A stretch of DNA of 40,435 bases from a virus: IMG/VR virus record IMGVR_UViG_3300019885_000001, positions 1 to 40,435 of that record; one strand, given 5' to 3'. The notes beneath the pieces were generated by a model, which worked only from the letters and a program-made list of their open reading frames with translations, was not told the origin of the DNA and ran no database searches. Positions 4,893-33,600 of this stretch are shown here, one piece after another (position 1 is the stretch's first letter; every line of letters begins with the position of its first letter). The translations under genes were made by a program, and so were the position numbers.

Positions 4893-5210
4893 ATGGCTGG
4901 TGGCAGAAAAAGCATGAAAGAAGAAATTGAAGTCGTGAAATATATGACCGAGTTAGCGGGTCCGACTTTTGATTTTATAAAATCCTGCATTGAAGGCAAA
5001 AATAAACCTGATAAGAAATGGGCAGTTGAGCAAATGATAAAGCTTTATGGCAAAGCCATACCCGATGCTGGTGATGACCCTACAAAGCCTATTTACGTGC
5101 AAATAGCCAAAGAATTAGCAGAGAAAAACAATATCGATGAATCTAACCCCGAAACAGTCGATAATAGCCCAGGATCGTCACCGCTACCGGGTCCTGAACA
5201 CGGGGCGTAG
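4893..5210 (+). CDS. terS: Putative terminase small subunit
   Basis: A 105-residue helical protein directly before the large terminase gene, the usual place of the DNA-recognition subunit. It has a basic start (MAGGRKSMKEE), helices to about residue 70 (DKKWAVEQMIKLYGKAIP) and a disordered Pro/Ser-rich tail. AAGGAG lies about 10 bases before its ATG. It overlaps the large subunit by 74 bases. The call rests mainly on position, size and helical pattern. Confidence 0.65.
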   Translation: MAGGRKSMKEEIEVVKYMTELAGPTFDFIKSCIEGKNKPDKKWAVEQMIKLYGKAIPDAGDDPTKPIYVQIAKELAEKNNIDESNPETVDNSPGSSPLPGPEHGA

Positions 5211-6372
5211 GTTTGGCAAAACCACTCTGGCCGTATTGGAGATGATTGCCAAAGCATTTGCCCAGAAAAATAGGCGGATAAGCTATATTGCCCCGACTTA
5301 TCAACAGGCTAGAGATATTGCCTGGGCAGAACTCTTGCGCCAAGCCCAGCCTTTAATCCACAAGGTCAATGAAAGCCGGCTGGAATTGAAAATCAAAACC
5401 CAGGATAGAGGCATATCGCTGATTACTTTGCGAGGCTGGGAGTCTGTGGAAACCGCCAGAGGCACATTTAACGATTTTTTAGTCTTAGACGAAGTTTCAG
5501 GCTATAAAAATTTCTGGCTGAATTGGCAGGAAGTACTTAGGCCAACGCTGACTGACCGCAAGGGTGAGGTTATGTTTATTTCCACGCCCAAAGGCTTTAA
5601 TCATTTTTTCGATTTGTATAATTTGGAAAATACGGATAAGGATTTTAAAAGTTTTCATTTTACCAGCTATGACAATCCCTTCTTGCCCGAAGAAGAACTG
5701 GATAAAGCCAGAGCCGAACTTACCGAGGACAGGTTTGCCCAGGAGTATCTGGCGGATTTCAGAAAAACTGAAGGCTTGGTATATAAAGATTTTTCAAGGG
5801 ACAGGCATTTATACAGCCAGCATGAGATTGAATCGGCGGAGTATATCGCGGGGATTGATTTTGGATTTACCAACCCTGCCGCGGTCTTATCAATCAGGCG
5901 GGATAAGGATGACAATTACTGGGTTGAAAAAGAATGGTATAAGACAGGGAGAACCGATGCCCAAGTGGCGGAATATGTCGCGTCCTGTGGATTCAATCGT
6001 GTCTATCCCGATCCTGAGTCGCCGGGGGCGATTGAAGCGCTTAATCAAAAAGGCGTATCAGTCAGCGAAGTTGTTAAGGGCAAGGATTCGGTAGCCAACG
6101 GCATTAGCAAAGTCAGAGAGCTGTTTAAGCAGAATCGCCTGCATATCCACAAGGATTGCGTAGCTTTGATTAGTGAATTGGAAACTTACAGCTACCCTGA
6201 CAAGAAGCCTGACCACAATGAACAGGAAAATCCAATTAAAGAAAACGACCATGCCCTCGATAGTTTAAGGTATGCCATTATGGGCAACCAGCCGCAGGGG
6301 ATTATCAGCCGGGAAGAAATACTTGAACGGAGTTTGGTCCGCCAAAGAGCATTAATCAACCAATCCAGATGA
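5137..6372 (+). CDS. terL: Terminase large subunit (ATPase and nuclease)
   Basis: This DNA-packaging motor of 411 residues has all the expected motifs: Walker A GRRFGKTT at residues 23-30, Walker B LVLDE near 115-119, the coupling motif FISTPKG near 148-153, and an RNase H-like nuclease with acidic residues at D241 (GIDFGFTN), D292 (YPDPESPG) and D375 (DHALDSLRYA). It cuts concatemers and pumps DNA through the portal. It overlaps terS by 74 bases. The next small gene starts by ATGA overlap with its stop. Confidence 0.95.
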   Translation: MNLTPKQSIIAQDRHRYRVLNTGRRFGKTTLAVLEMIAKAFAQKNRRISYIAPTYQQARDIAWAELLRQAQPLIHKVNESRLELKIKTQDRGISLITLRGWESVETARGTFNDFLVLDEVSGYKNFWLNWQEVLRPTLTDRKGEVMFISTPKGFNHFFDLYNLENTDKDFKSFHFTSYDNPFLPEEELDKARAELTEDRFAQEYLADFRKTEGLVYKDFSRDRHLYSQHEIESAEYIAGIDFGFTNPAAVLSIRRDKDDNYWVEKEWYKTGRTDAQVAEYVASCGFNRVYPDPESPGAIEALNQKGVSVSEVVKGKDSVANGISKVRELFKQNRLHIHKDCVALISELETYSYPDKKPDHNEQENPIKENDHALDSLRYAIMGNQPQGIISREEILERSLVRQRALINQSR

Positions 6373-9553: not shown

Positions 9554-10462
9554 ATGGCATTTCCCACAACTACCGAGACTTTAACAACTCTCGCTAGTTA
9601 CATCCCTACATTGTGGGGAGATAAAGTTAATGAGTTCTTTAAATTAAAACTCTTACTTGCCGATTTCTTCGTAGATCGATCAAGTGAATTGGCTGAAGGC
9701 GGTAATGTTCTCTATACCCCGACAACCACTGAGATGGCGGCAAACGCCAAACTCAACGCAACAGCGGTAACTTTAAATGCCCCCACGGACAGTAAAATTA
9801 CGCTGGCGGTTGACCAATGGTTTGAAGTTTCTTTTGCGATTGAGGATAGAGAAGCGGCGCAGGTTAAGCATTCCTACTATCTGCAGGAACGCTACGCCAA
9901 GAATGCCGGCTACACTATGGCTAAAAAATTGGAAGTTGCTCTTGCCACGCTGTTTGGCGGATTTTCCGGCACGGCGGGCAGTTCAACAGCTAATGTAAAA
10001 GACAGCGATATTCTCTCGGCAATCGCCCAGCTTGAAACCAATGGCCTGGATACGACGCAGGACGTGGCTTTCTTCTTCTCGCCGAATGTTTTTTGGAAAC
10101 AATTGCAATCGATTGATAAATTCTCTCTTGCAATTAATTCTCCAATCAACGATCCAACGGCGAAAAGACCGGCCGCATTGCTCTATGGCATTCCGGTATT
10201 TGTCTCCAACAATATTCAGAATGTATCCAACACAGTCGGGCGCTATAACGCTTTGGCTCATAAAGACGCTCTGCATTGGGCGCGGTCCCCTTTGGGAACC
10301 GGCGGATCAATGGGTTCGTCTTCCATGACAGGGCAGTATGGCGTCAGAGTGCAATCGCACTATATTCCCGAATATCTATCAACAGTCACGACCGCAGACT
10401 TGCTCTACGGCACGATTGAAAACAGAGATAACGCGGGAATCGCAATTCTCTCTGCGGCATAA
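9554..10462 (+). CDS. Major capsid protein
   Basis: A 302-residue protein right after the scaffold with pattern and length of an HK97-fold coat protein: an N-terminal arm (MAFPTTTETLTTLASYIPTL), a long spine helix around residues 105-130 (YLQERYAKNAGYTMAKKLEV), and a mixed alpha/beta domain. FFFSPNVFWKQL and YGIPVFVSNNI are typical coat-protein phrases. It starts 2 bases after the scaffold stop. A stem-loop after the gene may lower expression downstream. Confidence 0.85.
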   Translation: MAFPTTTETLTTLASYIPTLWGDKVNEFFKLKLLLADFFVDRSSELAEGGNVLYTPTTTEMAANAKLNATAVTLNAPTDSKITLAVDQWFEVSFAIEDREAAQVKHSYYLQERYAKNAGYTMAKKLEVALATLFGGFSGTAGSSTANVKDSDILSAIAQLETNGLDTTQDVAFFFSPNVFWKQLQSIDKFSLAINSPINDPTAKRPAALLYGIPVFVSNNIQNVSNTVGRYNALAHKDALHWARSPLGTGGSMGSSSMTGQYGVRVQSHYIPEYLSTVTTADLLYGTIENRDNAGIAILSAA

Positions 10463-10546: not shown

Positions 10547-11038
10547 ATGAAAAAAATAGCGTTAGGCGGCAAAAGGGGTCAAGATAAATATCTTTTAATA
10601 GATAATGAAAAATATGATTTAGTTAAAAAATATTCTTGGTATTTAAGCTCTTACGGATATGCTATTGCCCATCATTTAGGAAAAGGAAAAAATTATAAAA
10701 AAATTTATGCTCATTTATTAATAATAAACTGTCCTAAAGGGATGGAAATAGATCATATCAATCATAATAAATTAGATAATCGCCGCCGGAATTTAAGAAT
10801 TTGCACGCGTTCTCAAAACCAAATGAATAAAATAAAATTAAAAAATAATATTTCTGGATTTACAGGTGTAATTTGGGATAAACAAAATAAGAAGTTTCGT
10901 GCGCAAATTCAAGTTAATAAAAAACATTTTCATCTTGGTTTATTTGAAACAAAAGAACAAGCTGCCGAGATTTATAATCAAAAAGCAAAATATTTATTTG
11001 GTCAATTTTTTAATATTAAAAAATTAGGCAATTTATGA
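10547..11038 (+). CDS. HNH homing endonuclease with AP2-type DNA-binding domain
   Basis: This 163-residue protein has an HNH nuclease core (EIDHINHNKLDNRRRNLR near residues 66-83) followed by an AP2-like domain (SGFTGVIWDKQNKKFRAQIQ near 103-122, then HLGLFETKEQAAEIYNQKA). This is the standard plan of free-standing phage HNH-AP2 homing endonucleases, which cut phage DNA lacking the gene and spread by repair. It is visibly more A/T-rich than the capsid gene, supporting separate origin. AGGA lies before the ATG. Confidence 0.9.
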   Translation: MKKIALGGKRGQDKYLLIDNEKYDLVKKYSWYLSSYGYAIAHHLGKGKNYKKIYAHLLIINCPKGMEIDHINHNKLDNRRRNLRICTRSQNQMNKIKLKNNISGFTGVIWDKQNKKFRAQIQVNKKHFHLGLFETKEQAAEIYNQKAKYLFGQFFNIKKLGNL

Positions 11039-11337
11039 ATGGCGTGATACTTTCTCCGAATATAAAAAAGGAATCAGTCAGGATTGATTCTCAAGGCAAT
11101 GTTATTGACCCCAAGACAAAACAGATTATAAAGCCAAATGTTCCTGATTACATTCCGACCAAAGAAGAAATAGAAGGGCTGGCTAAAAAACAAACTGTTC
11201 CACAAGAAACCAAAACTAATCTATCCATAACTGAGCAGATAGCTGAAGCTGAAAAGCGTTTGGCTGATTTGAAATTACAAAAACAGCAAGAGATTGCCAG
11301 AATGAAAGAGGAATTAAAAAAGTTGGAGGCTTCTTGA
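11035..11337 (+). CDS. Hypothetical protein with C-terminal coiled coil, 100 aa
   Basis: The first half is mixed with a Pro-rich stretch; residues about 65-100 form a charged helix (ITEQIAEAEKRLADLKLQKQ). The ATG overlaps the stop of the HNH gene. It was probably next to the capsid gene before the HNH insertion, so it may be a head component, or the first gene of the sugar island. No family recognised. Confidence 0.6.
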   Translation: MNGVILSPNIKKESVRIDSQGNVIDPKTKQIIKPNVPDYIPTKEEIEGLAKKQTVPQETKTNLSITEQIAEAEKRLADLKLQKQQEIARMKEELKKLEAS

Positions 11338-12383
11338 AGGTTTATTTTACTCTGTCCATGCAGGAAGGCTGTTATTTCTATCGCTGTTTGACGCCTTTAA
11401 TAGCCGGCGGCTGGGATGGCGACAAGACCAGTTTAAGAAACTGGCATTTTAATGAAAATTCAATGGCTCAGGCTTGCATGGACGCGGACATTGTCGTCTT
11501 TCAGAGGCCGAATGACGAACGCTGCTTGCAGATTGCCGATACGCTTAGAAAACTGGGCAAGAAGATTGTCATGGATTCAGACGATACATATAAGGATATT
11601 GACGGGCATAAATTTGAGTATCTTTTGGATAAAGTTAATAAATATTTGGATGAATTTGGACGCAAAGCTGATTTGATTACTTGTCCCACGGAATTTTTGG
11701 CTAAAGAATACAGGGAGTTGAATGACAATGTCGCTGTTTTGCCGAACTGCATTGATCCTAATGCCTGGCCCGAGCCTTTAAGAAACGAGGGCGATAAGGT
11801 TCGCATTGGCGTAGTCGGCTCAACCGCTTACGAATCAGATTGGCAGGGATTTAAGCAGGTTTTGGAGTCGCTGAACAGAAAAAATGATGTGCAATTGGTT
11901 TTGTTTGGCTTGCCTGCCAAAGATGAGGATACGGCAAGGGTTGTTCAAAAAGTTCATGCCAAAGATTACGCTTTCTGGGAAAGTTTGAATATTGAATGGC
12001 AACCGCTGGTGCCTATGGCAGATTATTTTGATACTCTGAATGAATTGCGGCTGGATTTAATGCTTATTCCCAGAGCCGACAGATATTTTAATCGGTGTAA
12101 AAGCAATCTTAAATTCTTGGAAGCTTCCATGCTGGAGATACCGGTTATAGCCCAGGGGTTTACAACTAATGACAGTCCTTATCAGCAAAATCCTAAAGAC
12201 AGCCAATTTATGCGGGTCATCATCGATAATTCCAAATGGATGGATGAAATAAAAATGTTTTTAAGATACAAAAGCTTAAGGCGGGATTGGGGACAGAAAG
12301 CCAAGCAATATGTTTTAGAAAATTACAATATCGCTGTTAAAATTCATTTATGGGAACAGGAATATGCCAAACTTTTTGGATAA
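11334..12383 (+). CDS. Glycosyltransferase, GT4-like (GT-B fold)
   Basis: The 349-residue protein has the two-domain GT-B pattern: an N-terminal Rossmann-like half with IVMDSDDTY near 80-90, a linker, then RIGVVGSTAYESDW starting a second Rossmann-like half, and a C-terminal donor-binding region (RCKSNLKFLEASMLEIPVIA) matching the E-x7-E-type segment of GT4 enzymes. It would transfer a sugar from a nucleotide donor. The start codon is TTG, overlapping the previous stop; this is the first gene of the carbohydrate island. Confidence 0.8.
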   Translation: MKVYFTLSMQEGCYFYRCLTPLIAGGWDGDKTSLRNWHFNENSMAQACMDADIVVFQRPNDERCLQIADTLRKLGKKIVMDSDDTYKDIDGHKFEYLLDKVNKYLDEFGRKADLITCPTEFLAKEYRELNDNVAVLPNCIDPNAWPEPLRNEGDKVRIGVVGSTAYESDWQGFKQVLESLNRKNDVQLVLFGLPAKDEDTARVVQKVHAKDYAFWESLNIEWQPLVPMADYFDTLNELRLDLMLIPRADRYFNRCKSNLKFLEASMLEIPVIAQGFTTNDSPYQQNPKDSQFMRVIIDNSKWMDEIKMFLRYKSLRRDWGQKAKQYVLENYNIAVKIHLWEQEYAKLFG

Positions 12384-12942
12384 ACATTTTGGGCGTTTGG
12401 GAAACAGGTTTTTTCAAAGTGCATACATTTACGCCCAATGGCGGGAGGGCAAGATACCGGATATTTATTTGCAGAATTATGAGTACTTCGATAAGTACAA
12501 GGTGGAGTTGCAGGCTATGTTCAGCGAAGGGATTGGTTATGATAGCCGAGTCAGCATTCATGTCAGGCGCGGAAAAAATCCCAGCAATCCTGATGAACCC
12601 GCGTATTTTGAAAATCCTTTTTATGTGAACTTATGGGAAACCGATTATTATCAAAAAGCTATGGCCATGTTTCCTGACGAGCAGTTTTTGATATTCAGCG
12701 ACGATATCCAGTGGTGCATGGAACAGAAATTTTTTAAAAATCAAACTTTCTCTTTCGGAACGGAAATGGAAGACTTTAAACTTATGGCAAGTTGCAAATC
12801 CAACATTATTTGCAACAGCACTTATGGCTGGTGGGCGGCGTATCTTAATCCCAATCCTGATAAGATTGTGGTCGCGCCTAAAGAGTGGTTTACCGATAAA
12901 ATTGAACGGGTGAAATGCCCGCCTGAATGGAAAAGAATATGA
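12364..12942 (+). CDS. Glycosyltransferase family 11-like (fucosyltransferase type), short
   Basis: GRLGNRFFQSAYIYA near residues 10-24 matches the G-LGNQ-FQYA opening of GT11 alpha-1,2-fucosyltransferases; SIHVRRGK is the HxRRG motif for GDP-fucose binding, with Lys where Asp is usual; SNIICNSTYGWWAAYLN matches the third GT11 motif. At 192 residues it is about 100 shorter than typical members. GT11 enzymes use GDP-fucose, but the donor here could be another GDP-sugar such as the product of the next gene. It overlaps its neighbour by 20 bases. Confidence 0.8.
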   Translation: MPNFLDKHFGRLGNRFFQSAYIYAQWREGKIPDIYLQNYEYFDKYKVELQAMFSEGIGYDSRVSIHVRRGKNPSNPDEPAYFENPFYVNLWETDYYQKAMAMFPDEQFLIFSDDIQWCMEQKFFKNQTFSFGTEMEDFKLMASCKSNIICNSTYGWWAAYLNPNPDKIVVAPKEWFTDKIERVKCPPEWKRI

Positions 12943-13892
12943 ATTGTTTAATTACTGGAAGCTCAGGATTTATAGGGTCGAATCTTATTAAGCGCTTGAA
13001 ACAAGACGGCCATTATGTCGTGGGCGTGGACATAAAAAAGCCGAGATTTGCCAGACCTGATGAGTTTTTATTGGGCGATTTGCGCAACCCTGCTGTTTGG
13101 GAAAAATTGTTTTCTCATCCCCAAATATCCTTTGATAGATTATATGCCCTTGCGGCTTGGATGGGTGGAGCTGGGGTAATTTTTACTGGCGATAACGATT
13201 CAGAAATTTTGCATGACAACGCGCTTATCAATATCAATACTGCCCATTACGCAACCATTAATAAAGTTAAACAGGTGTTCTATTCCTCTTCAGCTTGCGT
13301 TTATCCGCCGATTGATGAACTTACCGCCCAGTTGACCAACTATGATTACAAAGAGACTGACGCTTACCCGGCTATGCCTGACAATGAATATGGTTGGGAA
13401 AAACTGTTCTCGGAACATTTATACTTGTCGTACAATAAGAACAAAGGGCTGAATGTGCGACTAGCTCGGTTTCATAATACTTTCGGGCCGTATTGTGCGT
13501 GGAAAGGAGGCAGAGAGAAAGCTCCAGCCGCCATTTGCCGTAAAGTCATTGAGGCTGACAATGAGATAGAAATGTGGGGAGACGGCGAACAGACTCGTTC
13601 CTTTTTATACATTGATGAATGTCTGGACGGAGTGGAAAAACTGATGCAATCGGATTTTGTCGGGACGGTTAATATCGGCTCATCGGAGTTGATTTCCATT
13701 AACCAATTAGCAGAGTGGGCTATGGAATTTAAAGGCAGAAAACTAAAGATAAACCATATTGACGGCCCGGTCGGCATCAGGGGACGCAATTCGGATAACA
13801 CTTTGATTGAACAGAAACTTGGTTGGAAACCAAGCAGACCGACTAAAGAGGGATTGTTAAAACTGTATAAATGGATTGAAAGCCAAATATGA
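12939..13892 (+). CDS. GDP-mannose 3,5-epimerase homologue
   Basis: This extended short-chain dehydrogenase has GSSGFIG (NAD-binding), the YGWEK catalytic pair (Tyr151, Lys155), SSACVYPP with the Cys used by GDP-mannose 3,5-epimerase (Cys120), and GGREKAPAAICRK with its acid/base Lys (Lys194). The stretches EMWGDGEQTRSFLYIDEC and GIRGRNSDNTLIEQKLGW are nearly diagnostic of that enzyme, best known from plants, which makes GDP-L-galactose and GDP-L-gulose. The start at 12939 gives an ATGA junction; an ATG four codons upstream is possible. Confidence 0.85.
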   Translation: MNCLITGSSGFIGSNLIKRLKQDGHYVVGVDIKKPRFARPDEFLLGDLRNPAVWEKLFSHPQISFDRLYALAAWMGGAGVIFTGDNDSEILHDNALININTAHYATINKVKQVFYSSSACVYPPIDELTAQLTNYDYKETDAYPAMPDNEYGWEKLFSEHLYLSYNKNKGLNVRLARFHNTFGPYCAWKGGREKAPAAICRKVIEADNEIEMWGDGEQTRSFLYIDECLDGVEKLMQSDFVGTVNIGSSELISINQLAEWAMEFKGRKLKINHIDGPVGIRGRNSDNTLIEQKLGWKPSRPTKEGLLKLYKWIESQI

Positions 13893-14548
13893 TTTCAATA
13901 GTCATCCCAACTTATCACATGAAATATGGCTTAGAGTTTCTCAAGCAGTCGTTTGATATGCTGAAACAGCAGACATACAAAGATTTTGAAGTTGTGGTAA
14001 CTGACGATTCTATGGATGATGAGATTAGGGATTTTTGCCAGGAAGAAAAAGATTTGCCTTTAAGATTTATTAAAAACATGGGAACTCCGGGAATGGCCGG
14101 GAACACCAATACCGCCATGCTTTATGCCAATGGCGATTTGATTAAAATTCTTTATCAAGACGATAGGCTTTATCACAGCCGGGCGTTGGAAGTAATTGCC
14201 GCTCACTTTAAGCCTAAGGATAATTGGCTGGCAACATCCTGCACGCATACTGATGGTTCAGTCCATTGGCCAACTTACAGTGATGAGATACTTAAAGGGG
14301 TTAATACAATCGGTTCGCCCAGCGTTATCACAATCCGCAAACAGGCTAATCCGATTTTGTTCAATACCAAACTGACTTGGGTGTTGGATTTGGATTATTA
14401 TTACCGAATGAAACAAAAGTTTGGCGAGCCAAAGCTGGTTTATGACATTAACGTTATAATCAACACAGGCGATCACCAGACGACTTTTAACTTGTCGGAT
14501 GAACGCAAATTAGCCGAAGTAAATTATTTAAAGGAGAAATACTTATGA
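13889..14548 (+). CDS. Family 2 glycosyltransferase
   Basis: MISIVIPTYHMKYGLEFLKQ opens a typical GT-A nucleotide-binding domain. VVVTDDSMDD near residues 35-44 and KILYQDD near 88-94 (the DxD-like metal site) follow, and GMAGNTNTAMLYANGDLI is the usual helix before it. It would add one sugar to a growing glycan. At 219 residues it is a catalytic domain without membrane anchor. It overlaps both neighbours by 4 bases. Confidence 0.85.
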   Translation: MISIVIPTYHMKYGLEFLKQSFDMLKQQTYKDFEVVVTDDSMDDEIRDFCQEEKDLPLRFIKNMGTPGMAGNTNTAMLYANGDLIKILYQDDRLYHSRALEVIAAHFKPKDNWLATSCTHTDGSVHWPTYSDEILKGVNTIGSPSVITIRKQANPILFNTKLTWVLDLDYYYRMKQKFGEPKLVYDINVIINTGDHQTTFNLSDERKLAEVNYLKEKYL

Positions 14549-15654
14549 AAATTTTGTATTCAGCCGCTGTATTCGGGGATGAAGAAAAGAACGCCGTATG
14601 GCTGGCATTGGGCAACACCATGCTCTCAGTCGGGCCGTTGTCAGAGGAGTTTGAAAAGCAGATCGCCAAGCTGTTTAATAAAAAATATGCGGTTTTTGTC
14701 AATTCAGGCAGCAGCGCCAATCTTTTGGCTTGCACTATCTTGCCCAAAGGCGAAGTTATCACGCCGGCTCTGACTTTTGCCACGACGCTTGCTCCGATTA
14801 TTCAGACAGGACACAAGCCGGTATTTGTGGATTCGGAGATCAGCACTTACTTGCCGACCATAGAAAATATCGAGAAGTTGATAACCAAAAAAACTGTGGC
14901 GGTTTTAATTCCCAACTTACTGGGCAATCGCATGGACTCGGCTAGGTTAAGAGCTTTGTGTGATGAGAAAAATATAATTTATATCGAAGATGATTGCGAT
15001 ACTATCTGCGAATCTTCGGGACACATAGCCATAACTTCTTTTTACGGCTCGCACATCATAACTGCCATGGGCGGGGGTGGCATGATTATGACTGATGATG
15101 AGACATTAGCTAAAAGATTCAGAACCATGCGGGATTGGGGACGAGGGGCGACCGAGAGCGAAGTTATCGCGGACAGATACACCCAGACTGTCGGCAACTT
15201 TCTTTACGACAATAAATTTTTGTATGTGGAAAAAGGATTTAATTTCAGGCCGGTTGAGGCTATGGCCGCGTTCGGCTTGGAGCAGTTAAAAAGACTGGAT
15301 GGTTTTTTGGCTAAGCGCAAAGCCAACTTTATAAGCCTGCTGGAGTTCTTTGAGCGGGAGTTTCCGCAGTTTACATTGCCGTTTACGCAATTTCACGCCA
15401 ATTGGCTGGCTTTTCCTCTGTTGGTTGATAACAGGTATAAATTGGTCAAGTATCTGGAGGAGCATGAAATTCAAACTCGCCCGATATTTTCAGGCAACAT
15501 TACCAGACATCCTGCTTTTTACAGCTCCCACCGCCCAAGGAAGTTTCCTAATGCCGATTATGTTATGAAACACGGGCTATTAATCGGCATACATCAGGGA
15601 TTGGGCGAGGAGCAGTTGGAGTATATTAAGCAAACTTTTAGAGGCTTTAAATGA
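14545..15654 (+). CDS. DegT/DnrJ/EryC1/StrS-family PLP enzyme with His in place of catalytic Lys
   Basis: The fold is clear over 369 residues: NSGSSANLLA (phosphate loop, near 53-62), EVITPALTFATTLAP, IEDDCDT near 148-153, and MRDWGRG. In sugar aminotransferases the PLP Lys lies in SF-x-TK-x-x-x-GEGG; here the segment reads SFYGSHIITAMGGGG, with His170 in that place. The same swap defines the 3-dehydratases RfbH/E1 and ColD, which remove the sugar 3-OH. The Cys cluster of E1 is absent, so ColD-like (GDP-sugar) chemistry is closer. This fits the GDP-mannose epimerase next door. Confidence 0.85.
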   Translation: MKILYSAAVFGDEEKNAVWLALGNTMLSVGPLSEEFEKQIAKLFNKKYAVFVNSGSSANLLACTILPKGEVITPALTFATTLAPIIQTGHKPVFVDSEISTYLPTIENIEKLITKKTVAVLIPNLLGNRMDSARLRALCDEKNIIYIEDDCDTICESSGHIAITSFYGSHIITAMGGGGMIMTDDETLAKRFRTMRDWGRGATESEVIADRYTQTVGNFLYDNKFLYVEKGFNFRPVEAMAAFGLEQLKRLDGFLAKRKANFISLLEFFEREFPQFTLPFTQFHANWLAFPLLVDNRYKLVKYLEEHEIQTRPIFSGNITRHPAFYSSHRPRKFPNADYVMKHGLLIGIHQGLGEEQLEYIKQTFRGFK

Positions 15655-16292
15655 ACATTCTTTTAACAGGCGGTTCAGGGCTGTTAGGTTCGCAGTTAAT
15701 TCCGATATTGGGTAAAAAGAGAGATTGGAAAGTGATAGCTCCACCGCACAAGCTTTTGGATATTACCCAAGCTCCGATTACGTCGTATCAAGGCATAGAT
15801 TTGCTGATTCATTGCGCTGCTTACACCAAAGTTGAACAAGCCGAAATTGATAGGCAAGAATGTTTTGAAACCAATGTTAACGGTACGTTCAATCTGTTGC
15901 TGGCGTATCCCAAAGTTCCGTTTGTGTTTATTTCAACCGAGTATGCCCATAGGCCGATTAATTTTTACAGTCTGACTAAAAGATTGGCAGAACACGTGGT
16001 TACTTATCAAGCAACGCCTTATCTGATTATCAGGACTTTATTTAAGCCAAGACCATTTCCTCACCCCAAAGCATTTACTGATATGTTTACTTTAGGAGAT
16101 TACGCGGATAAAATCGCTTCCAAGATTTACTATGCAATTAGCGAATGGCAGGAGGATAAGAAGTCTAAATTGATATATATAGGCACAGGCCGAAAAAGTA
16201 TGTTTGAATTGGCGAAAGAAACCCGCCCTGATGTTGAGCCTATGAGCATTAAAGATATTAAGACAGTTAAATTACCTTCTGATTATCAATGA
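15651..16292 (+). CDS. RmlD-like NAD(P)-dependent sugar reductase, short
   Basis: MNILLTGGSGLLGSQLIPIL is a GxxGxxG nucleotide-binding start; DLLIHCAAYTKVEQAE matches the RmlD-type D-V-N-AAYT-VD-AE motif, and YSLTK supplies the Tyr and Lys of the active site. RmlD reduces a 4-keto sugar to the final deoxysugar. At 213 residues it is shorter than usual (about 290), with the substrate-binding end reduced. It could reduce the keto intermediate made by the preceding DegT-like enzyme. Confidence 0.75.
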   Translation: MNILLTGGSGLLGSQLIPILGKKRDWKVIAPPHKLLDITQAPITSYQGIDLLIHCAAYTKVEQAEIDRQECFETNVNGTFNLLLAYPKVPFVFISTEYAHRPINFYSLTKRLAEHVVTYQATPYLIIRTLFKPRPFPHPKAFTDMFTLGDYADKIASKIYYAISEWQEDKKSKLIYIGTGRKSMFELAKETRPDVEPMSIKDIKTVKLPSDYQ

Positions 16293-16876
16293 TAAAATTG
16301 CCTATGATAACTCTGGCTTGCATGACCGGAGTTGGCTATAAAACACAAGAGCATAAGGAAGCGATAAGGAAAAGCTGTAAAGATATAAAGTTCGGAGCCG
16401 TTAAACTGATTGAGCTGGAACAAATAAAAGATATTGGAACTTGGAATGAGGCGGTGATTTACGAATTGCCTAGACACATTGAAACTGACTATTGCTTATT
16501 TATTCATCATGACGGATATATTATTCACCCCGAACTTTGGAAAGATGAATGGCTCAATTATGATTTTATCGGAGCACCTTGGCCAATGCCTAAAGATAAT
16601 TATTCATATAGAACGCTTTTAGGCAGATTGATTCGGGTCGGCAATTCAGTCAGCTTAAGAAGCAAAAAATTAATGGATTTAGCGGCAATTAGGCTAATGG
16701 AATATCATCATGGAAATAACAACGAGGACGGAGCGATATGCGTCTGGCAAAGGGATTGGCTAGAGGAACAAGATTGTAAGTTTGCCCCATTGGAGGTTGC
16801 TAAGTATTTCAGCAAAGAGCATGAGATAGAGGAGAATAAAGACATTAAAAAAACTTTCGCTTTTCACTCACTATGA
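16289..16876 (+). CDS. Putative glycosyltransferase, DUF5672-like
   Basis: CLFIHHDGYIIHPELWKDEW followed by LNYDFIGAPW is the signature of the DUF5672 group, predicted GT-A-type glycosyltransferases in polysaccharide clusters. HHDGY probably takes the place of the DxD metal site. A later NEDGAICVWQRDWLEE segment matches the conserved end (N-E-D). The protein is 195 residues, soluble, and overlaps both neighbours by 4 bases. Confidence 0.75.
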   Translation: MIKLPMITLACMTGVGYKTQEHKEAIRKSCKDIKFGAVKLIELEQIKDIGTWNEAVIYELPRHIETDYCLFIHHDGYIIHPELWKDEWLNYDFIGAPWPMPKDNYSYRTLLGRLIRVGNSVSLRSKKLMDLAAIRLMEYHHGNNNEDGAICVWQRDWLEEQDCKFAPLEVAKYFSKEHEIEENKDIKKTFAFHSL

Positions 16877-17610
16877 TAGCCACTAATTTGGAGGAAGGAA
16901 TGGGTTTGGGCAACCAGTTATTTTCATATGTAATGTGCCGTGTTTTAGCTTTGGATTTAAACACGGATTTTGGCATAGGCCACCCGGAATTATTTAAGGG
17001 TAGTTCCTTTATGAATCTGGATTTTGGCAGAAATCTTCAATGGCTGAGGTTTAAATTCAGCGAACAAAGAATTGATACGCCTGAAGGCGTGGATATTCGA
17101 GGCTATGACAAGCGGGTGAAAGATATTAAGGACAACACTCTGATAATGGGCTTATGGCAGGATGAGAATTATTGGAAGCATAGGCTTATGGAAATCGACA
17201 AATGGCTGGCGGTTGAACCTCTAAAAATGCCCAAGAATCTATGTGTTATAAACTTTCGAGGCGGAGAATATAAAGGCGTTGCTGATTTGTATTTAACCCA
17301 TGATTACTGGAGTCTGGCGGTTTCGGAAATGAAAGCCAAAGGAGCAAAGAAATTCATTGTGGTTACCGACGATATGGAAGAAGCTTTGAAATTTTTCCCT
17401 GATTTTGAAGTTATGCACGAGATTGGCAGGGATTGGCGGATGATCCGCTATGCTAATTATTTGATTCTTTCCAATTCCAGTTTCGCCGTACTGCCGGCTT
17501 TATTAAATGAGAATGTAAAATTAGTTTTGGTGCCCCGTTTTTGGGCTGGACGCAATGTTGGCTACTGGAAACTTCCCCAAAATGAATATAAAAAATTCAC
17601 TTATATATAA
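16873..17610 (+). CDS. GT11-like glycosyltransferase
   Basis: GMGLGNQLFSYVMCRVLALD resembles the GT11 opening motif; CVINFRGGEYKGV is the HxRRGDY-like motif with Asn-Phe in place of His-x; LILSNSSFAVLPALLN matches the SNSSFSWW-A-LN motif near the end. It is the second GT11-type gene of the island and clearly different from the one at 12364. Donor and acceptor are unknown. The HNH gene follows, separating it from the next sugar gene. Confidence 0.75.
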   Translation: MIATNLEEGMGLGNQLFSYVMCRVLALDLNTDFGIGHPELFKGSSFMNLDFGRNLQWLRFKFSEQRIDTPEGVDIRGYDKRVKDIKDNTLIMGLWQDENYWKHRLMEIDKWLAVEPLKMPKNLCVINFRGGEYKGVADLYLTHDYWSLAVSEMKAKGAKKFIVVTDDMEEALKFFPDFEVMHEIGRDWRMIRYANYLILSNSSFAVLPALLNENVKLVLVPRFWAGRNVGYWKLPQNEYKKFTYI

Positions 17611-17640
17611 TTGCATTTCTTTACTGGGTATGATATCCAT

Positions 17641-18069
17641 ATGGTTATGGAAAAGAAATGTTTAGAATGTAAAAAAATATTTATTCCTTGGCCATCTAAT
17701 TTTAAAAAAGGAGGTGGTAAATTTTGTTCAATGAAATGCTATCATAGACAGGCTATTTCTCATAGAAAAGGTATAGAATCGCCTTTTTGGAAAGGTAAAA
17801 AGGCGAAGTACGGTGCTGTTCATGATTGGATAAAATCACAATTTGGTAATGCTAAAAAATGTGAAAATTCTGAATGTATTTATCCTAGAAAAACTAAGAA
17901 TGGAATTTTATTATTTCCTCAAAAATTTGATTGGGCTTTGAAAAAAGGAAGAAACTATAATGATAGGAAGAAAGATAGTTTTATTCAATTCTGCCGAAGT
18001 TGTCATAAAAAATATGATTTTAAGAAATCAAAAAAACGAAATAACAAAGGATATTTTATAAAAGTATGA
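17641..18069 (+). CDS. Free-standing HNH-type endonuclease with zinc knuckles
   Basis: It has CLECKKIF and KFCSMKC (a four-Cys zinc site near the N-terminus), then YGAVHDWIKSQFG with CENSEC, and FIQFCRSCHKKYD at the end, the form of the phage HNH group with YxxxHxWxxxxxG...CxxC...D...W/F-xxLCRxCHxxYD. It is strikingly A/T-rich beside its neighbours and sits between two glycosyltransferase genes, so it looks like a homing insertion. The open frame extends 10 codons upstream to a TTG; ATG 17641 or 17647 is preferred. Confidence 0.75.
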   Translation: MVMEKKCLECKKIFIPWPSNFKKGGGKFCSMKCYHRQAISHRKGIESPFWKGKKAKYGAVHDWIKSQFGNAKKCENSECIYPRKTKNGILLFPQKFDWALKKGRNYNDRKKDSFIQFCRSCHKKYDFKKSKKRNNKGYFIKV

Positions 18070-18746
18070 AAATTAGAGATGATACTTTTGTAGTGATTTC
18101 TAAATATAACAGCGATGCTGACTGGATCAAAAAGTATACATGTAACTATCAGATTTACGACAAGTCTGACCCTGTTCCAAACTACCCAGAAAAAAATTTA
18201 TTAGGTTATAGGGATATACGGATTCCGAATGTAGGGTTTAACCTTTATGCTTATTTTACATACATCATTGAACATTATAAAAATTTACCGGAAATTCTAA
18301 TGCTGATTAAAGGAAACGTTATTAACCGCCATGTCAGCAAAGAATATTTTGAGAGCGTTATGAACAATGATTATTTCACGCCGATTGTCGAAAAAGAAAA
18401 GCTGGAATTTCGCATGACGGATTCTTACTGGGATCACGGCTATATGGAGCATAATTATTTGAATATGTACCATAACATTCTTTATGTCAGGAACCCTAAT
18501 GAATTTTTTGATTTTGTCTATCAAGACCACTACTATCCAACCTATCTGCGGTTTGCCCCAGGCGCTAATTATATCGTCCCTAAAGGCCAGATTTTGCGCC
18601 TGCCGAAAAGTCTGTATCAGGATATGCGGACAATGGTAGAACATCACCAGTTAAGCGGGGAAAGCCATATTATTGAACGCTGTCTGGATACTTTGTGGAC
18701 TTCAGGACTTAAATTAAGGGAACAGCGGATTATTCATACCATATGA
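18066..18746 (+). CDS. DUF3431-like protein, probable glycosyltransferase
   Basis: FVVISKYNSDADWIKKYTCN, then YQIYDKSDP, NVGFNLYAYFTYIIEHYKNL and PEILMLIKGNVINRH follow the order of DUF3431 proteins (V-V-R-Y-D-W, YDKG, N-GREAHTYL-Y-YD-LPD-F-QG). The group is found with glycosyltransferases and is thought to act on glycans. Late His and Glu (HHQLSGESHIIERCLDTLW) are also typical. 226 residues. ATGA junction with the next gene. Confidence 0.65.
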   Translation: MKIRDDTFVVISKYNSDADWIKKYTCNYQIYDKSDPVPNYPEKNLLGYRDIRIPNVGFNLYAYFTYIIEHYKNLPEILMLIKGNVINRHVSKEYFESVMNNDYFTPIVEKEKLEFRMTDSYWDHGYMEHNYLNMYHNILYVRNPNEFFDFVYQDHYYPTYLRFAPGANYIVPKGQILRLPKSLYQDMRTMVEHHQLSGESHIIERCLDTLWTSGLKLREQRIIHTI

Positions 18747-19525
18747 AAATCGTGGATTGCGTGTTATTCAACGGCGAGAAAGAAGTCTTGGATTTAAGAT
18801 TGAATATTCTTAAGGATTTTGTCGATTATTTCATAGTCTGCGAAGCGACCTCAACCTTCAGCGGCAAAAGCAAACCTTTGTATTATCTGGAAGATTTGGA
18901 AAAATACCAAAAATTTTCCATAGAATATTATATGATTGGCGATGACTTTACCGCAGAAGAAATTGATCTGGCCGAGAACAGCCCCAATACCAAAGGCCCT
19001 GCTCATTTTCTCCATGAGTTTCTGCAAAAGGAGAGGATTAAAAAAGCTTTGATAGGCTTAGATGCTGAGGATATAGTTTTTATTTCCGACTGCGATGAAA
19101 TTTATGATCCCAAATCTCTATCCATAATTCCCGAGGGAATTTACAGGATTAACCAGATCGTTTATGTTTATTATTTGAACAATAAAAGCGATGAGCAATG
19201 GGCTGGAACTTTATTATGCAAATATAAAGACATTAAGGATGGCTGTTTGAATCATCTGCGGACGGCTAAACATTCCATAATCGGCAATGGCTGGCACTTC
19301 ACCAGCTTAGCCAAAGATTTAAGACGGAAATTAACGGACAGTTATACTGCCGAGAGTTACGCCGCTGATTATGTCTTGAATAATCTGGAAAAGAATATTA
19401 AAGCCAATAAAGACTTTTTAGGCAGAGATTTTAAATACGAGATAGACGAAAGCCAATGGCCGGAATACTTAACCAATAACAGAAGCAAATATGCCGAACT
19501 GTTCCGTAATAATCCCGGTATTTAA
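18743..19525 (+). CDS. GT17-family glycosyltransferase (beta-1,4-GlcNAc transferase type)
   Basis: KIVDCVLFNGEKEVLDLRLN and ILKDFVDYFIVCEA, TFSGKSKPLYYLE are the hallmark opening of GT17, the family of animal MGAT3 (adds the bisecting GlcNAc of N-glycans) with bacterial and viral members. DIVFISDCDEI near 112-122 holds the acidic metal site, and NGWHFTSL is the conserved late segment. 260 residues, so only the catalytic domain. It overlaps the next gene by 35 bases. Confidence 0.85.
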   Translation: MKIVDCVLFNGEKEVLDLRLNILKDFVDYFIVCEATSTFSGKSKPLYYLEDLEKYQKFSIEYYMIGDDFTAEEIDLAENSPNTKGPAHFLHEFLQKERIKKALIGLDAEDIVFISDCDEIYDPKSLSIIPEGIYRINQIVYVYYLNNKSDEQWAGTLLCKYKDIKDGCLNHLRTAKHSIIGNGWHFTSLAKDLRRKLTDSYTAESYAADYVLNNLEKNIKANKDFLGRDFKYEIDESQWPEYLTNNRSKYAELFRNNPGI

Positions 19526-20147
19526 CCAGGAAGAATACTTAGCCGAGGCTATTGAATCAGCGCTGGCTCAAACTGTTCCTGTGGAGGTAATCGTGGTTGA
19601 CGATGGTTCGATTGACGACAGCTTTAAAATCGCTTCCAAATATCCGGTTAAATTGGTTTCTCATATGTTTAATCGGGGATTGTCAGCCGCCAGAAATACG
19701 GGTATTCGCCATGCCCAGGGAGTCAGGATTCTATGTTTGGATTCGGATGATACTATTGAACCGACTATGGTGGAAAAATGTCAGAATATTCAGGGCGTGG
19801 CAGTTGTCGGAGTGCATAATTTTGGGGACAGGCTAGAGGCTTGGGTCCTGCCTTACCAAGACTTAACCTTGGAAGCATTTAAGATTCAAAATCGAATAAC
19901 CTGCTGCTCCATGTTTGATAAAAAAGACTGGCAAGCCGTAGGCGGATTTGATGAGGAAATGAAACTGGGAAAAGAAGATTATGACTTCTGGTTGTCCTTA
20001 TTGAAACGGGAAGTGAAATTTACTCCGATTAACGAACTTCTGTTTAATTACCGCATGAAAGCTGATAGTATGGCCTTAAGAGCAGATAGCATGGAACAGG
20101 AAATTTTGGAATATATCCACAACAAACACAAAGATTTATGGACTTAG
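19491..20147 (+). CDS. Family 2 glycosyltransferase
   Basis: MPNCSVIIPVFNQEEYLAEA, then VIVVDDGSIDDS (residues 33-44), RGLSAARNTGIRHA and ILCLDSDDTIEP (DxDD metal site) give a complete GT2 GT-A domain; GKEDYDFWLSLLKR supplies the catalytic ED segment. 218 residues without membrane helices. The start lies inside the GT17 gene in another frame. It resembles the next gene and may be its paralogue. Confidence 0.9.
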   Translation: MPNCSVIIPVFNQEEYLAEAIESALAQTVPVEVIVVDDGSIDDSFKIASKYPVKLVSHMFNRGLSAARNTGIRHAQGVRILCLDSDDTIEPTMVEKCQNIQGVAVVGVHNFGDRLEAWVLPYQDLTLEAFKIQNRITCCSMFDKKDWQAVGGFDEEMKLGKEDYDFWLSLLKREVKFTPINELLFNYRMKADSMALRADSMEQEILEYIHNKHKDLWT

Positions 20148-20827
20148 TCAGCATTGTTATTCCCGTATATAATGGCGAACAATACATCAGGCAAGCTTTA
20201 GACTCCGCTTTGGCTCAGACATACAAGAATATAGAGATTATTGTGGTCAATGACGCCAGCACGGATAAAACGGAGGATATAGTAAAACAGTATTCAGTTA
20301 AGTATTTGAAGCACGAAACAAACAAAGGGTTGAGCGCTGCCATGAACACAGGGTTAGCTCATAGCAAAGGCCAATACTTAATGGAACTTGATTGCGATGA
20401 TTACATTGATAAAGAGTTGGTGGAATTATCCTTGCAATGGTTTGAAGCTAAAAAAACGGATATAGTCGGAGTCTGGCAAAAAGAATTTGGCGATAGAGGA
20501 GAAATTCACTATTTCCATCCCAATCCCACTCATAAAGATTTTCTTAATGGCAATAAGATTAACTGCTCCTCTATGTACAAAAGAAAAGTTTATGAGGCTA
20601 TGCTAAAAGAATATGGATTCATGTACGACGAGAAACTGAAAGTTTATCAAGATTGGCAGGCTTGGATTCGGGCAACCAAGTTGGGATTTACCGTGGCCAC
20701 TATTCCCCTGCCTTTGTTCCATTATCGGATTCATAAAGGCTCGCTGATAACCGACATGCTGGCTAGTAATACCCGCCATGACGCTTTTGAGGTTATGAAA
20801 GATTCGTTGCCTGATATTTTTAAATAA
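20138..20827 (+). CDS. Family 2 glycosyltransferase
   Basis: MDLVSIVIPVYNGEQYIRQA, IIVVNDASTDKTEDI, KGLSAAMNTGLAHSKGQYLM and ELDCDDYID give the usual GT2 order, with the metal site in DCDD. VYQDWQAWIRA replaces the more usual ED-W segment. 229 residues, last gene of the carbohydrate island, overlapping its predecessor by 10 bases. Substrates unknown. Confidence 0.9.
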   Translation: MDLVSIVIPVYNGEQYIRQALDSALAQTYKNIEIIVVNDASTDKTEDIVKQYSVKYLKHETNKGLSAAMNTGLAHSKGQYLMELDCDDYIDKELVELSLQWFEAKKTDIVGVWQKEFGDRGEIHYFHPNPTHKDFLNGNKINCSSMYKRKVYEAMLKEYGFMYDEKLKVYQDWQAWIRATKLGFTVATIPLPLFHYRIHKGSLITDMLASNTRHDAFEVMKDSLPDIFK

Positions 20828-20831
20828 ATTT

Positions 20832-21392
20832 ATGTATCCACGAAGAGTAAAACTTGACCATCCCAAACTTTTAAAGCTGGAATTGGAGAAAGGCGAACTG
20901 ATTGAACAAGGTCGGGAATTTTCTAGGCAGATTGAAGAGACAGAGTTGGAAATGGGCAAAATTGATATACGCCTGCAGGCGCAGGAGGCTAAGGTTGATG
21001 TTGCTGATCTGAAAGAAAAAGGCAAAGCTATTATAAAAGACATGGATAATGTGGCTAATGAGTTTAAAAATAAGATACAAGCAGTTGAAAAAGAAATATT
21101 TGAGCGCATGAGCAAGCAAACTGATCCCGAACTGCGTAAAAAACACCAAGAATTGGAAAAAATTAAGAAAGATTTGGAAACCGAGCGCAATAAAAAAGCG
21201 CTTAAAGCTCAACAAATAAAAGACAGAATCATTCCTCTGACCCGCAGGCTTATGACTCCCCATTTGGAGAACGATTATGAGGATATTTATGACGTTAAAT
21301 TGGAAAATGGCGAGATGATTGGCACAATCTTTTCCCATTTGGCGGATTTTGAAACAAAATTCAGAAAAAAGTTGGAGAAATCAAAAAAATAA
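20832..21392 (+). CDS. Coiled-coil protein, 186 aa
   Basis: Nearly the entire chain from residue 10 to 145 is a charged coiled coil (EKGELIEQGREFSRQIEETE..., then DPELRKKHQELEKIKKDLET); the last 40 residues may form a small domain (ENGEMIGTIFSHLADFETKF). It starts 4 bases after the sugar island and before tail genes. Could be a structural or assembly factor. No family recognised. Confidence 0.65.
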   Translation: MYPRRVKLDHPKLLKLELEKGELIEQGREFSRQIEETELEMGKIDIRLQAQEAKVDVADLKEKGKAIIKDMDNVANEFKNKIQAVEKEIFERMSKQTDPELRKKHQELEKIKKDLETERNKKALKAQQIKDRIIPLTRRLMTPHLENDYEDIYDVKLENGEMIGTIFSHLADFETKFRKKLEKSKK

Positions 21393-21504
21393 GGGTATAG
21401 TTAAAGAAATATAACAAAAGCAATTTTTGGGTAGTAGCTCTCGTAAGTGGGGTGTGAGGTCGCTCTCCGCCCCAGCCCATAAAAACGTAATTAAGCGACT
21501 AATT
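21393..21504 (+). other. Leader before the third HNH gene with GC-rich hairpin
   Basis: A GC-rich block (21448-21474) can fold as TGGGG/CCCCA with an inner GAG/CTC, in an otherwise A/T-rich stretch. The local base composition differs from both neighbours, so this leader may have arrived with the endonuclease gene. Confidence 0.4.
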
Positions 21505-21945
21505 ATGCCATATAAAGATTTACAAAAACGAAATGCTTATAAAATTCAATGGGCAAAAGAACATCCTGAGAGTAGGCGTTTAACGCACTTGAAGTATTAT
21601 CGAACTCATAAGGATCAATTTAAGATAAGAGCTGATAGATACAGAAATCGACGAGTCACAGTAATAATGCCCAATTATCAATATAGGATTAAAATTGACG
21701 TTTTTACGCATTATTCTAAAGGTAAACCAATTTGTGCTTGTTGTAGAGAATCTATATTTGAATTTTTAACAATTGATCATATCAATGGAGGCGGAACTCA
21801 GGAACGAAATAAAACGAAAAGAAACGGTGGCTATGTATTCTACAGATGGCTTCAAAAGAATAATTATCCATTAGGGTATCAAGTTCTATGTTATAACTGC
21901 AATTGTGGTAAACGTACTTCTCAAATATGTCCACATAATTATTAA
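21505..21945 (+). CDS. HNH homing endonuclease
   Basis: The N-terminal 60 residues are basic and helical (KNRN-type); then CACCRESIFEFLTIDHINGG (zinc-linked HNH core with DHINGGG), YRWLQKNNYP and VLCYNCNCGK. This is a common free-standing phage HNH type. ATG 21505 is preferred; the frame extends upstream to a TTG through a GC-rich hairpin. A/T-rich, inserted between the coiled-coil gene and a virion gene. Confidence 0.88.
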   Translation: MPYKDLQKRNAYKIQWAKEHPESRRLTHLKYYRTHKDQFKIRADRYRNRRVTVIMPNYQYRIKIDVFTHYSKGKPICACCRESIFEFLTIDHINGGGTQERNKTKRNGGYVFYRWLQKNNYPLGYQVLCYNCNCGKRTSQICPHNY

Positions 21946-30647: not shown

Positions 30648-30676
30648 ATATTAACAGATACATGGAATAGTGTCAA
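30648..30676 (-). promoter_or_regulatory. Leftward promoter for the 39-aa gene
   Basis: Minus strand TTGACA (30676-30671) and TAATAT (30653-30648) with a 17-base spacer: perfect -35, 4 of 6 in the -10, ideal spacing. It overlaps the start of the fibre gene. Confidence 0.6.
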
Positions 30677-33600
30677 TACCTAAAATGACCAAAGAAGAAC
30701 GCCTAAAACGAATCCAGGAAATCAACAATTCTGCCTTAACTCCCCAGCAGAAGATTCTTGAAATTAAGAAGTTTGTGGATAGCGAAAAACAGGCGGAAAC
30801 CGAAGCAAAACAGGCTAACAGCGTGAATAAAGTTGAACTTGTAAATGATAACGAAAAAAACACTTTAGCTAAAACTTTCTTTTCTATGTTGAAAGGTGAG
30901 AAAGGCGACGAGGGAGAATCCATAGTCGGCCCAAAGGGGGATAAGGGAGATACTGGAGCAGATTCTACCGTTCCCGGGCCAATGGGGCCGGCTGGCAAGA
31001 ATGGAAAGGATGGCAAGTCAATTCAAGGTCCGCCTGGCAAAGATAGTACTGTCCCAGGACCTCGAGGCGAAAGAGGTGAAATAGGCGAAAGAGGCGCCGA
31101 TGGTTCTTCGGATACTTCATTTCAAATACGGGATAAATTGTCTTCCTTGGTTAAAAACGAACGGCTGGATATTGCTGCGATTAAGGGAGTTGATAAATTG
31201 CAAGATCAGATTGTCAATCATTCGGTTTCTGAAGCCAGACGAGGATTGCTTTACGCGGGATTAATCACTCAGGGTAGCAGCGGCGGTACTGGAGCAGTTT
31301 CAGTTGATACGGTGCTTGGTCCTGCTTCTGCCACCGACAACGCTGTTGCCAGATTTGATTCGACTACCGGCAAGCTGATTCAAAATTCTTCAGCATTGTT
31401 AAATGACCAAGGGGTTTTATCCACAGCTAATACCTTTGCTACAGAAGAACAAGTTTCGGGCAATATCCGCCCTGGCTACCAAGCTTTTTATAACGGGGGA
31501 ACTTCGGGGTCGAGTTATTCCATCGGCCAGGCTTTTTCTATTGACGGCGTGGATTGGGTCAGAGACAGCGCCAATCCCATAATCTCTCCGGTGGCCTCGA
31601 CTTGGGAAGCCAATATCTGCAAAGACCCGTGGGTAGTAGTTGTTAATAATATAATTTACCTTTACTACGCCGGCTGGCGTTCTTCGACCAATCGTTTTCA
31701 AATTGGTTTGGCTATTTCTAAAGACTATGGCCGGACTTTTACCAAGTATTCAACTAATCCGATAATCGCCAACGGCGGAGTGGGAACTGTTGATGAGAGA
31801 CGGGCGATGTTCCCGGTGGTTCTCTATGAAGCCGATGAAGCCAATTCTGCCAAGAAATGGAAGATGTGGTATGCCGGACGCAATGCTTCGGATGTCGAAA
31901 CTCTGGCTTACGCTTATAGCGCTGACGGCATAACTTGGACTAAATTCGGGCAAGTTTTGGCATTGGGCGCGGGTGGACAATTCGACGACGGCATTCTGCA
32001 GACCGGCAGTGTCGTAAAAATTTTAGGAATTTATTATTTCTTTTATGCAGGCAATACCACGGTCGGGGGCAGGACTAAATGGACAGGCGGACTGGCAACA
32101 TTTACCGATCCCGAAGGGACATATACCAGACAAGGACAGGTGTTAAATTCCGATACAGCCAAAGTTCAAAATCTGACAGCCGATACTCTGACAGCTTCCA
32201 AAGTTGTAACTGTCGCCGATACTTCTGTTTTTGAAGCCAATGAATATGTTTTGATTGCCGATACCAATAGCACGCCGCTATTGACCCGTATTGAATCTAT
32301 TGATTCGGCAACTCAGGTAACTTTGCGCGACGCGGTGGCTTCTGATATTACCACAGCCTTGTCCGGAGCATTGCGTTCAGTTTATTCCTGGAGCGTTGCT
32401 CCTCGAACTGTCTTTCGAGAAAACGGCCATTGGACAATGGCAGTGACACTCTACCAGGCCTTTTCGGACATGGGTTATCTCAATGAAGTTTCAGGCTGGG
32501 CATATAACTACAACGATTTGCCGACAGGTTCATGGACAATAGATATTAAACGGGGTATCGCATTGGAGCCGGTGGCGGGAACCTGGGAAACAGTATCTTG
32601 TGAGAATTTTTCAATCATTCCTTTAAGGTTTTCTCCTTATCAGCCAAAGGACGCGGAATTGACCCAGATTGCGGCACTCGCTGATCCCGATGCTGATAGA
32701 GTTTTGTTTTGGGATGACAGTACTAGCAGTTATGCATTTTTGACAATTGGAGCGGGATTAACTTTAACGGATACAACTCTCAGTACAGCGGCTGGCGGAG
32801 GGGACGTTGTCGGGCCTTCTTCCTCATACGACAATGCTCTTCCCAGATTTGATGGGAATACCGGCAAATTGCTTCAAGGCAGCAGTCTGATTTTAAGCAA
32901 TCCCTCCATTACTTCTCTTGAACTTAAACCCGTATCTGTGTCAGGTGTTGGATTTTCTGTAAGTTTCAATGCCGGAGACAGCACTGATGATAATGGCGGA
33001 ACAGCAACCCTCCACGGCGGCAACGCGACTGCCGGCAACAGCAATGGCGGAGATGTCGCCCTAATTGCTGGATCCAAATCAGGAAGCGGAACAGCGGGAA
33101 TTATTTATTTATCAAAAGGGGATGGACAACCCTCTGCGGTAATGGATGTTTCCGGGATTTTATCAACTTCCAAAATTTTTACTTGGCCGAATACAACGGG
33201 AACCGTACTTCTTACTACAACTTTGCCTGCTATAAATTTAGCAGCCAGCGGAGTCGGGGGAGTGACGGGCAATCTGCCTGTGACTAATCTTAATTCCGGT
33301 ACGGGAGCCACTGCTTCTACTTTCTGGCGAGGCGACGGCACATGGGCAAGCGGCGGACTTACCAGTATTGCCCCGCTGGTCATAACCAGCGCAAACGTGG
33401 TTGACCAATATAACGCGGCGAACGCCCAGACTTTCAGCATTTATAACAGGCGGGCTGATGCCAGCAATTATGAACGCTTCTCTCTTTTGTATGATGGCGG
33501 CGTTACCATGTATTTGTACACGAATCACAGCGGAGCTGGATATAACAACACCAATATCAGAATCCAGGCTGACGGGGCAGTTTCTCTTTACAACAACTCT

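Follow-up and report, generated by a model that had tools for sequence, protein, structure and literature searches.

Glycosylation of phage virions, autonomous glycan pathways in giant viruses and large sugar-gene clusters in cyanophages are already known; the tailed phages with demonstrated virion glycosylation are few and use one or a few transferases. The mycobacteriophages Che8 and Rita and their relatives encode transferases and are described as carrying glycans covalently attached to the major capsid and tail tube proteins (Freeman et al. 2023, as relayed in PMC11256854 and PMC12619734). Chloroviruses and mimiviruses possess transferases and nucleotide-sugar enzymes of their own and display rare-sugar glycans on structural proteins (PMC4691112). 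In cyanophages (sources include PMC9602691 and PMC7824862), the S-SCSM1 cluster comprises GMD, GDP-fucose synthase, GME and fucosyltransferases, and the cyanomyovirus cluster has been interpreted as a means of modifying the host envelope (PMC7824862).

The DNA that we analysed (the window) is an entire IMG/VR record, listed as linear, with a length of 40435 bases. ORF reading gave 13 ORFs across 11334–20827, every one open and all on the + strand, as are the neighbouring genes g11035, g20832 and the capsid gene. The island covers 9494 of the 40435 bases (23.5%), in agreement with the quarter of the genome estimated in the first-pass annotation, and 11 of its 12 internal junctions overlap, seven of them by exactly 4 nt, while the remaining pair abuts, so that the description of the genes as mostly overlapping also holds. 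Its position between capsid and tail genes was borne out by the flanks, with a terminase gene (5137–6372) and the major head protein gene (9554–10462; phrog_267, E 2e-18) upstream and tail-side genes from 21956 onward. Family assignment by Pfam and PHROGs searches confirmed three nucleotide-sugar enzymes and nine transferase-like genes, the latter of six kinds; the earlier gene list was correct for the genes it named but incomplete, as it missed a thirteenth, the HNH-like, non-sugar gene I. We found no strong + strand terminator-like site within the island, the promoter scan gave the same number of sites as in shuffles, and an Rfam search of the window and of three relatives with split capsid genes gave no match. 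Mycobacteriophages have few transferases, those of Maravista lying near the 3' end of the genome, whereas the window, known from its genes alone, has nine together with sugar-nucleotide enzymes inside the capsid-tail operon. It resembles the chloroviruses in carrying both transferases and nucleotide-sugar enzymes, but chloroviruses and mimiviruses are giant viruses of eukaryotes with other gene sets and the window is a 40-kb tailed phage.

The island begins with gene A (11334–12383), which encodes a GT4-like (GT-B) glycosyltransferase matching phrog_7162 (5e-37); a PDB sequence search with A gave only generic GT4 C-terminal matches. Between the capsid gene and A lies g11035 (11035–11337), encoding a small conserved protein; 44 of 61 relatives have a homologue in this position. 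Two genes are of the GT11 type, namely B (12364–12942), which is alpha-1,2-fucosyltransferase-like (PF01531, 1e-21) with the motifs GRLGNRFFQ and HVRRG, and the GT11-like H (16873–17610; phrog_2644, 4e-9). Genes D (13889–14548, 1e-14), L (19491–20147, 3e-29) and M (20138–20827, 5e-39) all match the GT2 family PF00535, and K (18743–19525) is of the GT17 or N-acetylglucosaminyltransferase type (PF04724, 8e-18). Gene G (16289–16876) belongs to DUF5672 (PF18922, 5e-12), a family for which our literature search retrieved no paper concerning phages. The AlphaFold model of G (pLDDT 88) had GT-A enzymes as its top PDB matches, with TM up to 0.60, and the PBCV-1 capsid glycosyltransferase 2p73 was among the fold matches, which adds to the likeness to chloroviruses; judged by its predicted fold, G is a GT-A enzyme. 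Gene J (18066–18746; DUF3431, PF11913, 1e-11) is glycosyltransferase-like by context only, its AlphaFold model, built from three sequences, having a pLDDT of 35. Gene I (17611–18069) gave weak HNH matches (E 0.02–0.05) and appears to be an insertion outside the pathway. An HNH gene is also found between G and H in one relative, L093.

The remaining three genes concern the supply of sugars. C (12927–13892) matched the plant GDP-mannose 3,5-epimerase 2c59 over its full length with an E value of 2e-94, against 8e-23 for the next enzyme family, and gave a further epimerase family match in the Pfam/PHROGs searches (E 9e-39). In the alignment it shares the catalytic Cys (SSAC-Y-P), the Tyr/Lys pair (YGxEK) and the Lys of WKGGREKAP, and as read from its sequence C is a GDP-mannose 3,5-epimerase, an enzyme leading to GDP-L-galactose or GDP-L-gulose. 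E (14545–15654) is predicted to be a PLP-dependent nucleotide-sugar 3-dehydratase (DegT family, 3e-66 in Pfam/PHROGs; 3bcx, 2e-55; ColD 3gr9, 1e-45). Its stretch SFYGSHIITAMGG aligns with SFYPAHHIT of E1, which places His170 at the position of the PLP lysine; this position is His in 68 of 78 aligned sequences and Lys in the other 10, the Lys type being aminotransferase-like. The [2Fe-2S] cysteines that follow RDWGR are absent from gene E in the E1 alignment, which sets it apart from the E1 subtype and points to ColD-like chemistry. F (15651–16292) is a putative RmlD-like NDP-4-keto-sugar reductase (PF04321, 8e-18; 3sc6, 3e-11), and is short. The 4,6-dehydratase needed by E is absent from the window, so that the host would have to supply it. 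The short F, the uninformative fold model of J and this absence count against reading the island as a pathway for virion glycosylation.

To place the island among related phages, we examined the surroundings of the capsid gene and of A. The capsid protein has 61 relatives in IMG/VR; it had no match among 50,697 cultured phage records, and no relatives of it were found among cellular genome contigs. The capsid genes of three relatives are split. A profile search with A matched at least 428 viral contigs, out of which 80 loci were kept. Among 96 non-redundant A loci (duplicates removed and the window not counted), the capsid gene lies just upstream of A in 94, and the remaining two are cut off at that point. 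The next core gene after A was resolved in 80 loci, and in 59 of these A is followed directly, at a gap of less than 50 nt, by g20832 (20832–21392 in the window), a conserved gene for a coiled-coil protein, at which the cargo site ends. The gap is 100–580 nt in 10 of the resolved loci (to g20832, or in two cases to the adaptor) and 0.9–8.3 kb in 11, and at least seven further A loci enter cassette genes before the contig ends; the window has 8.4 kb of cargo at this junction. A is missing from a fully covered region only in the most distant capsid relatives (L053, L055–L058). A is a core gene of an uncultured phage group. Since it is conserved after the capsid gene and mostly joined directly to g20832, we regard A as the resident gene and B–M as cargo at the A–g20832 junction. 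The notion of one pathway is thus retained, but not that of a single unit, as the island consists of a core gene plus a mobile cassette.

Mapped on a tree built from 90 A proteins, the loaded state requires four changes, two of them imposed by branches with good support, and the cassette in its syntenic form requires at least three. Among 17 empty-site genomes, nine have A plus one SDR gene and only two have a GT2 gene; the one SDR tested, from L036, is dTDP-glucose 4,6-dehydratase-like. These genomes look like a minimal, one-transferase version of the system. The two close matches to A lie on short contigs from MAGs, one labelled Bacteroidales and the other Tenericutes; they were considered as a clue to the host and rejected: the capsid gene adjoins A on both, so they are binned phage contigs, and their host labels conflict.

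The cassette is found repeatedly, with B-D-E-G-H-J-K-L as its recurring gene set. L093 has the order B-C-D-E-F-G-(HNH)-H-J-x-K-L at the A–g20832 junction, and parts of it, in almost unchanged order, are present there in seven other relatives (L067, L096, L100, L086, L065, L097 and L044). A search with gene G matched 513 viral contigs; in the 80 G loci kept, the commonest order was L-B-D-E-G-H-J-K, and G precedes H and H precedes K in most of them. That independent contigs share these genes in almost the same order rules out chance or assembly noise. The recurrence also supports the earlier proposal of a multi-gene glycan pathway belonging to the late operon, as the search of related genomes suggested there did find this cluster between their capsid and tail genes. 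The branched form of the glycan and the virion as its acceptor, also put forward there, were not borne out in the same way. A second cassette-bearing group consists of phages of ~42 kb that have neither the capsid family of the window nor A; their capsid protein is the different phrog_1357, and two records, examined over their whole length, have the cassette on the coding strand with the terminase, portal and capsid genes immediately after it. The lack of A itself in this second group counts against a reading as virion glycosylation. Cassette-bearing contigs reach 270 kb. In close pairs the dN/dS values of cassette genes were mostly 0.02–0.3, as measured on related cassettes, the window itself being without a near relative for comparison; higher values (up to 0.8) came from one pair, whose genes have apparently been replaced by distant copies. 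Purifying selection thus acts on the related cassettes. The alternative of a passively carried piece of host DNA that serves no function in the phage might draw on the empty site of most relatives and on the HNH-like genes inside and beside the island, but we reject it as highly improbable because of this selection and the gene order. The set stands in near-same order at one and the same site, with three or more changes on the tree of A, it recurs both in the ~42-kb group and in large phages, and all island frames are intact.

The sugar-supply genes vary independently of the phages that carry them. E of the window is 63% identical to that of L067, with A at 49%, whereas L067 and L093 share 73% identity in A and only 26% in E; the E of L093 is in turn 70% identical to that of L086. 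The allele types of E hence do not track phage relationship. The place of C is taken by GMD in L009 and by dTDP-glucose 4,6-dehydratase elsewhere, and L100 has dTDP-glucose 4,6-dehydratase plus a 3-dehydratase; the partial pathways of L009 and L100 make chemical sense. Together, the E alleles and the changes at the C place indicate that the sugar supply is swapped while the transferases B, D and G stay.

With regard to the acceptor, the cellular relatives of A give an indication. Of 34 distant relatives, 17 have a flagellin gene somewhere in the fetched locus, and in 11 (in Marinobacter, Deefgea, Chitinibacter and Pseudomonas) such a gene lies in the same orientation 0.2–0.5 kb downstream, these counts coming from a motif scan on motif-selected relatives with Marinobacter making up seven of the 11 adjacent cases. 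The adjoining flagellin genes suggest that these relatives are likely protein glycosyltransferase genes beside a surface-filament gene. The window shares with bacterial flagellin glycosylation islands the combination of soluble cytoplasmic transferases and a self-assembling surface protein, but A is only 22–31% identical to its cellular relatives and its neighbour is a capsid gene, not flagellin. A hydropathy scan found no hydrophobic segment above threshold in A–M; in the cargo of relatives four proteins exceeded the threshold, all DegT enzymes, a soluble family. Transferase genes are tied to structural genes, as virion glycosylation would have it, in both the A group and the ~42-kb group. 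A virion protein is therefore favoured as acceptor, on account of A beside the capsid gene, its flagellin-adjacent relatives and the soluble enzymes, and we consider it probable, from gene position and distant homology, that the island serves cytoplasmic glycosylation of such a protein with exchangeable sugars.

The late-expressed system would decorate a protein of the virion, for which the product of the capsid gene just upstream is the likeliest candidate. A, as the proposed initiating protein glycosyltransferase, would attach the first sugar to the protein, D, L and M, all of the GT2 type, would lengthen the glycan, and B and H would add an L-sugar in alpha-1,2 linkage. The donor of this sugar would be GDP-L-galactose or GDP-L-gulose, formed by C from GDP-mannose of the host, or alternatively GDP-L-fucose if made by the host. 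E and F may produce a 3-deoxy sugar from a 4-keto-6-deoxy precursor, and G, J and K may add further residues. Exchange of the sugar-nucleotide genes would change the identity of the sugar, as in O-antigen serotypes, and thereby alter the particle surface shown to host receptors, defences or predators.

The best surviving alternative is that the enzymes modify a surface glycan of the host (LPS or capsule) during infection, blocking superinfection or altering the host. Large clusters in cyanophages with the same enzyme classes (GMD, GME, GT11 and GT2) have been read in this way in print (PMC7824862, PMC9602691), and those of the cyanomyoviruses RB11-B and S-B05 contain homologues of E (His type), G, H, K and C of the window; the RB11-B 'aminotransferase', the homologue of E, has the histidine. 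The cyanomyovirus cluster, however, is about 20 kb long and lies beside fibre genes, outside the late genes, on the strand opposite to the neighbouring fibre genes in S-B05, and has no core A beside the capsid gene, whereas that of the window is inside the capsid-tail operon. The first-pass annotation had taken homologous phages with the cluster outside the late operon as evidence against its reading; none was found within the capsid group, but the related cyanomyovirus cluster is such a case for the cassette in the wide sense. Against a host-surface target, neither the island, nor the cargo of relatives, nor 22 records contained a membrane-anchored transferase, flippase or polymerase, and GtrA flippase and phosphoglycosyl transferase were both absent from the 22 records. 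L and M do resemble GT2 (GtrB-like) sequences of GtrABC serotype conversion, but the window lacks GtrA, membrane segments and an integrase. Only one of the 22 records has an integrase, so that a long benefit through lysogeny is unlikely, A belongs to the core of the capsid module, and late expression would leave little time for remodelling of the envelope. We therefore hold modification of the host surface to be rather doubtful. Still less probable is that the transferases glycosylate hypermodified bases of the phage DNA. Some phages do have glycosyltransferases that act on DNA (Pyle et al. 2024, as cited in PMC12619734), and L weakly matched a beta-glucosyl-HMC-alpha-glucosyltransferase PHROG (9e-5), but a hydroxymethylase of the thymidylate-synthase type was not found in the 22 (possibly incomplete) records, its positive control being matched, and nine diverse transferases with rare-sugar enzymes in a structural operon would be unusual for base modification. 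A search for TET/JBP oxygenases gave no match, as did its positive control. DNA modification by the island enzymes is unlikely.

Returning to glycosylation of the virion, we tentatively suggest a phage 'serotype' system, in which a founder protein glycosyltransferase beside the capsid gene has been upgraded repeatedly by a mobile, ordered cassette; this might build a virion oligosaccharide, often one containing a 3,6-dideoxy sugar, and phages would exchange its sugar genes in the manner of O-antigen genes. As far as the literature was searched, the following are new: a large uncultured group whose capsid module has a fixed core transferase, the empty or loaded site next to it, an ordered cassette common to small and large phages, and the exchange of its sugar genes. 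If the proposed glycosylation of the virion is right, small environmental phages would devote up to a quarter of their genome to a glycan pathway, which would move between unrelated phages as an ordered cassette and diversify by sugar swapping. The purpose of phage surface glycans would then become a testable question, for which the cultured cyanophages with a homologous set, RB11-B and S-B05, would offer an experimental entry.

At the cargo site, the junction between the GT4-like core gene A and g20832 that in the window holds cassette genes B-M, relatives L013 and L031 carry only a homing-endonuclease-like ORF. In nine of 17 genomes in which this site is empty, with A followed by g20832, a single SDR gene lies upstream of the terminase gene; it is dTDP-glucose 4,6-dehydratase-like in L036 (936-1949) and is also found in L034, L035, L012, L049, L061, L006, L091 and L048. 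This gene may supply the sugar used by A.

The tail fibre of the window (30670-35718, 1682 aa) contains collagen-like repeats and gave a weak match to a GH32-type beta-propeller (2e-4); it perhaps includes a depolymerase or glycan-binding part.

With regard to the DegT genes, the one in L097 (13631-14785) is broken by an intein-like stretch (IKVGDEVLTRKGYRKVL...) that reaches the contig end. The protein of Synechococcus phage RB11-B annotated as a DegT aminotransferase (L264 14352-15647) has a His (SFYPAHHICTIEGG) at the position expected for the PLP lysine and, because of this replacement, is probably a 3-dehydratase, contrary to its annotation.

Among relatives with 66-83% identical capsids, terminase identity to that of the window was either 22-29% or 57-69% (L002, L004 and L011 versus L001, L003 and L042). 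Judged from these sequences, the terminase is exchanged within the phage group. Two contigs of the same group, L138 and L139, lie inside assemblies with conflicting labels, Bacteroidales and Tenericutes.

Several relatives have a capsid gene interrupted by inserts of about 0.7-0.9 kb, in the manner of introns or homing elements (L047 888-2557, L049 9028-10690, L050 9096-10720, L051 to 7633, L061 5759-7481, and 34202-35834 in G021, the record for L097); Rfam indicated no known intron in three of these relatives. In the window, HNH-like genes lie beside the glycan-building island (10547-11038 and 21427-21945) and interrupt it (gene I, 17611-18069). Homing could be a driver of cassette exchange.
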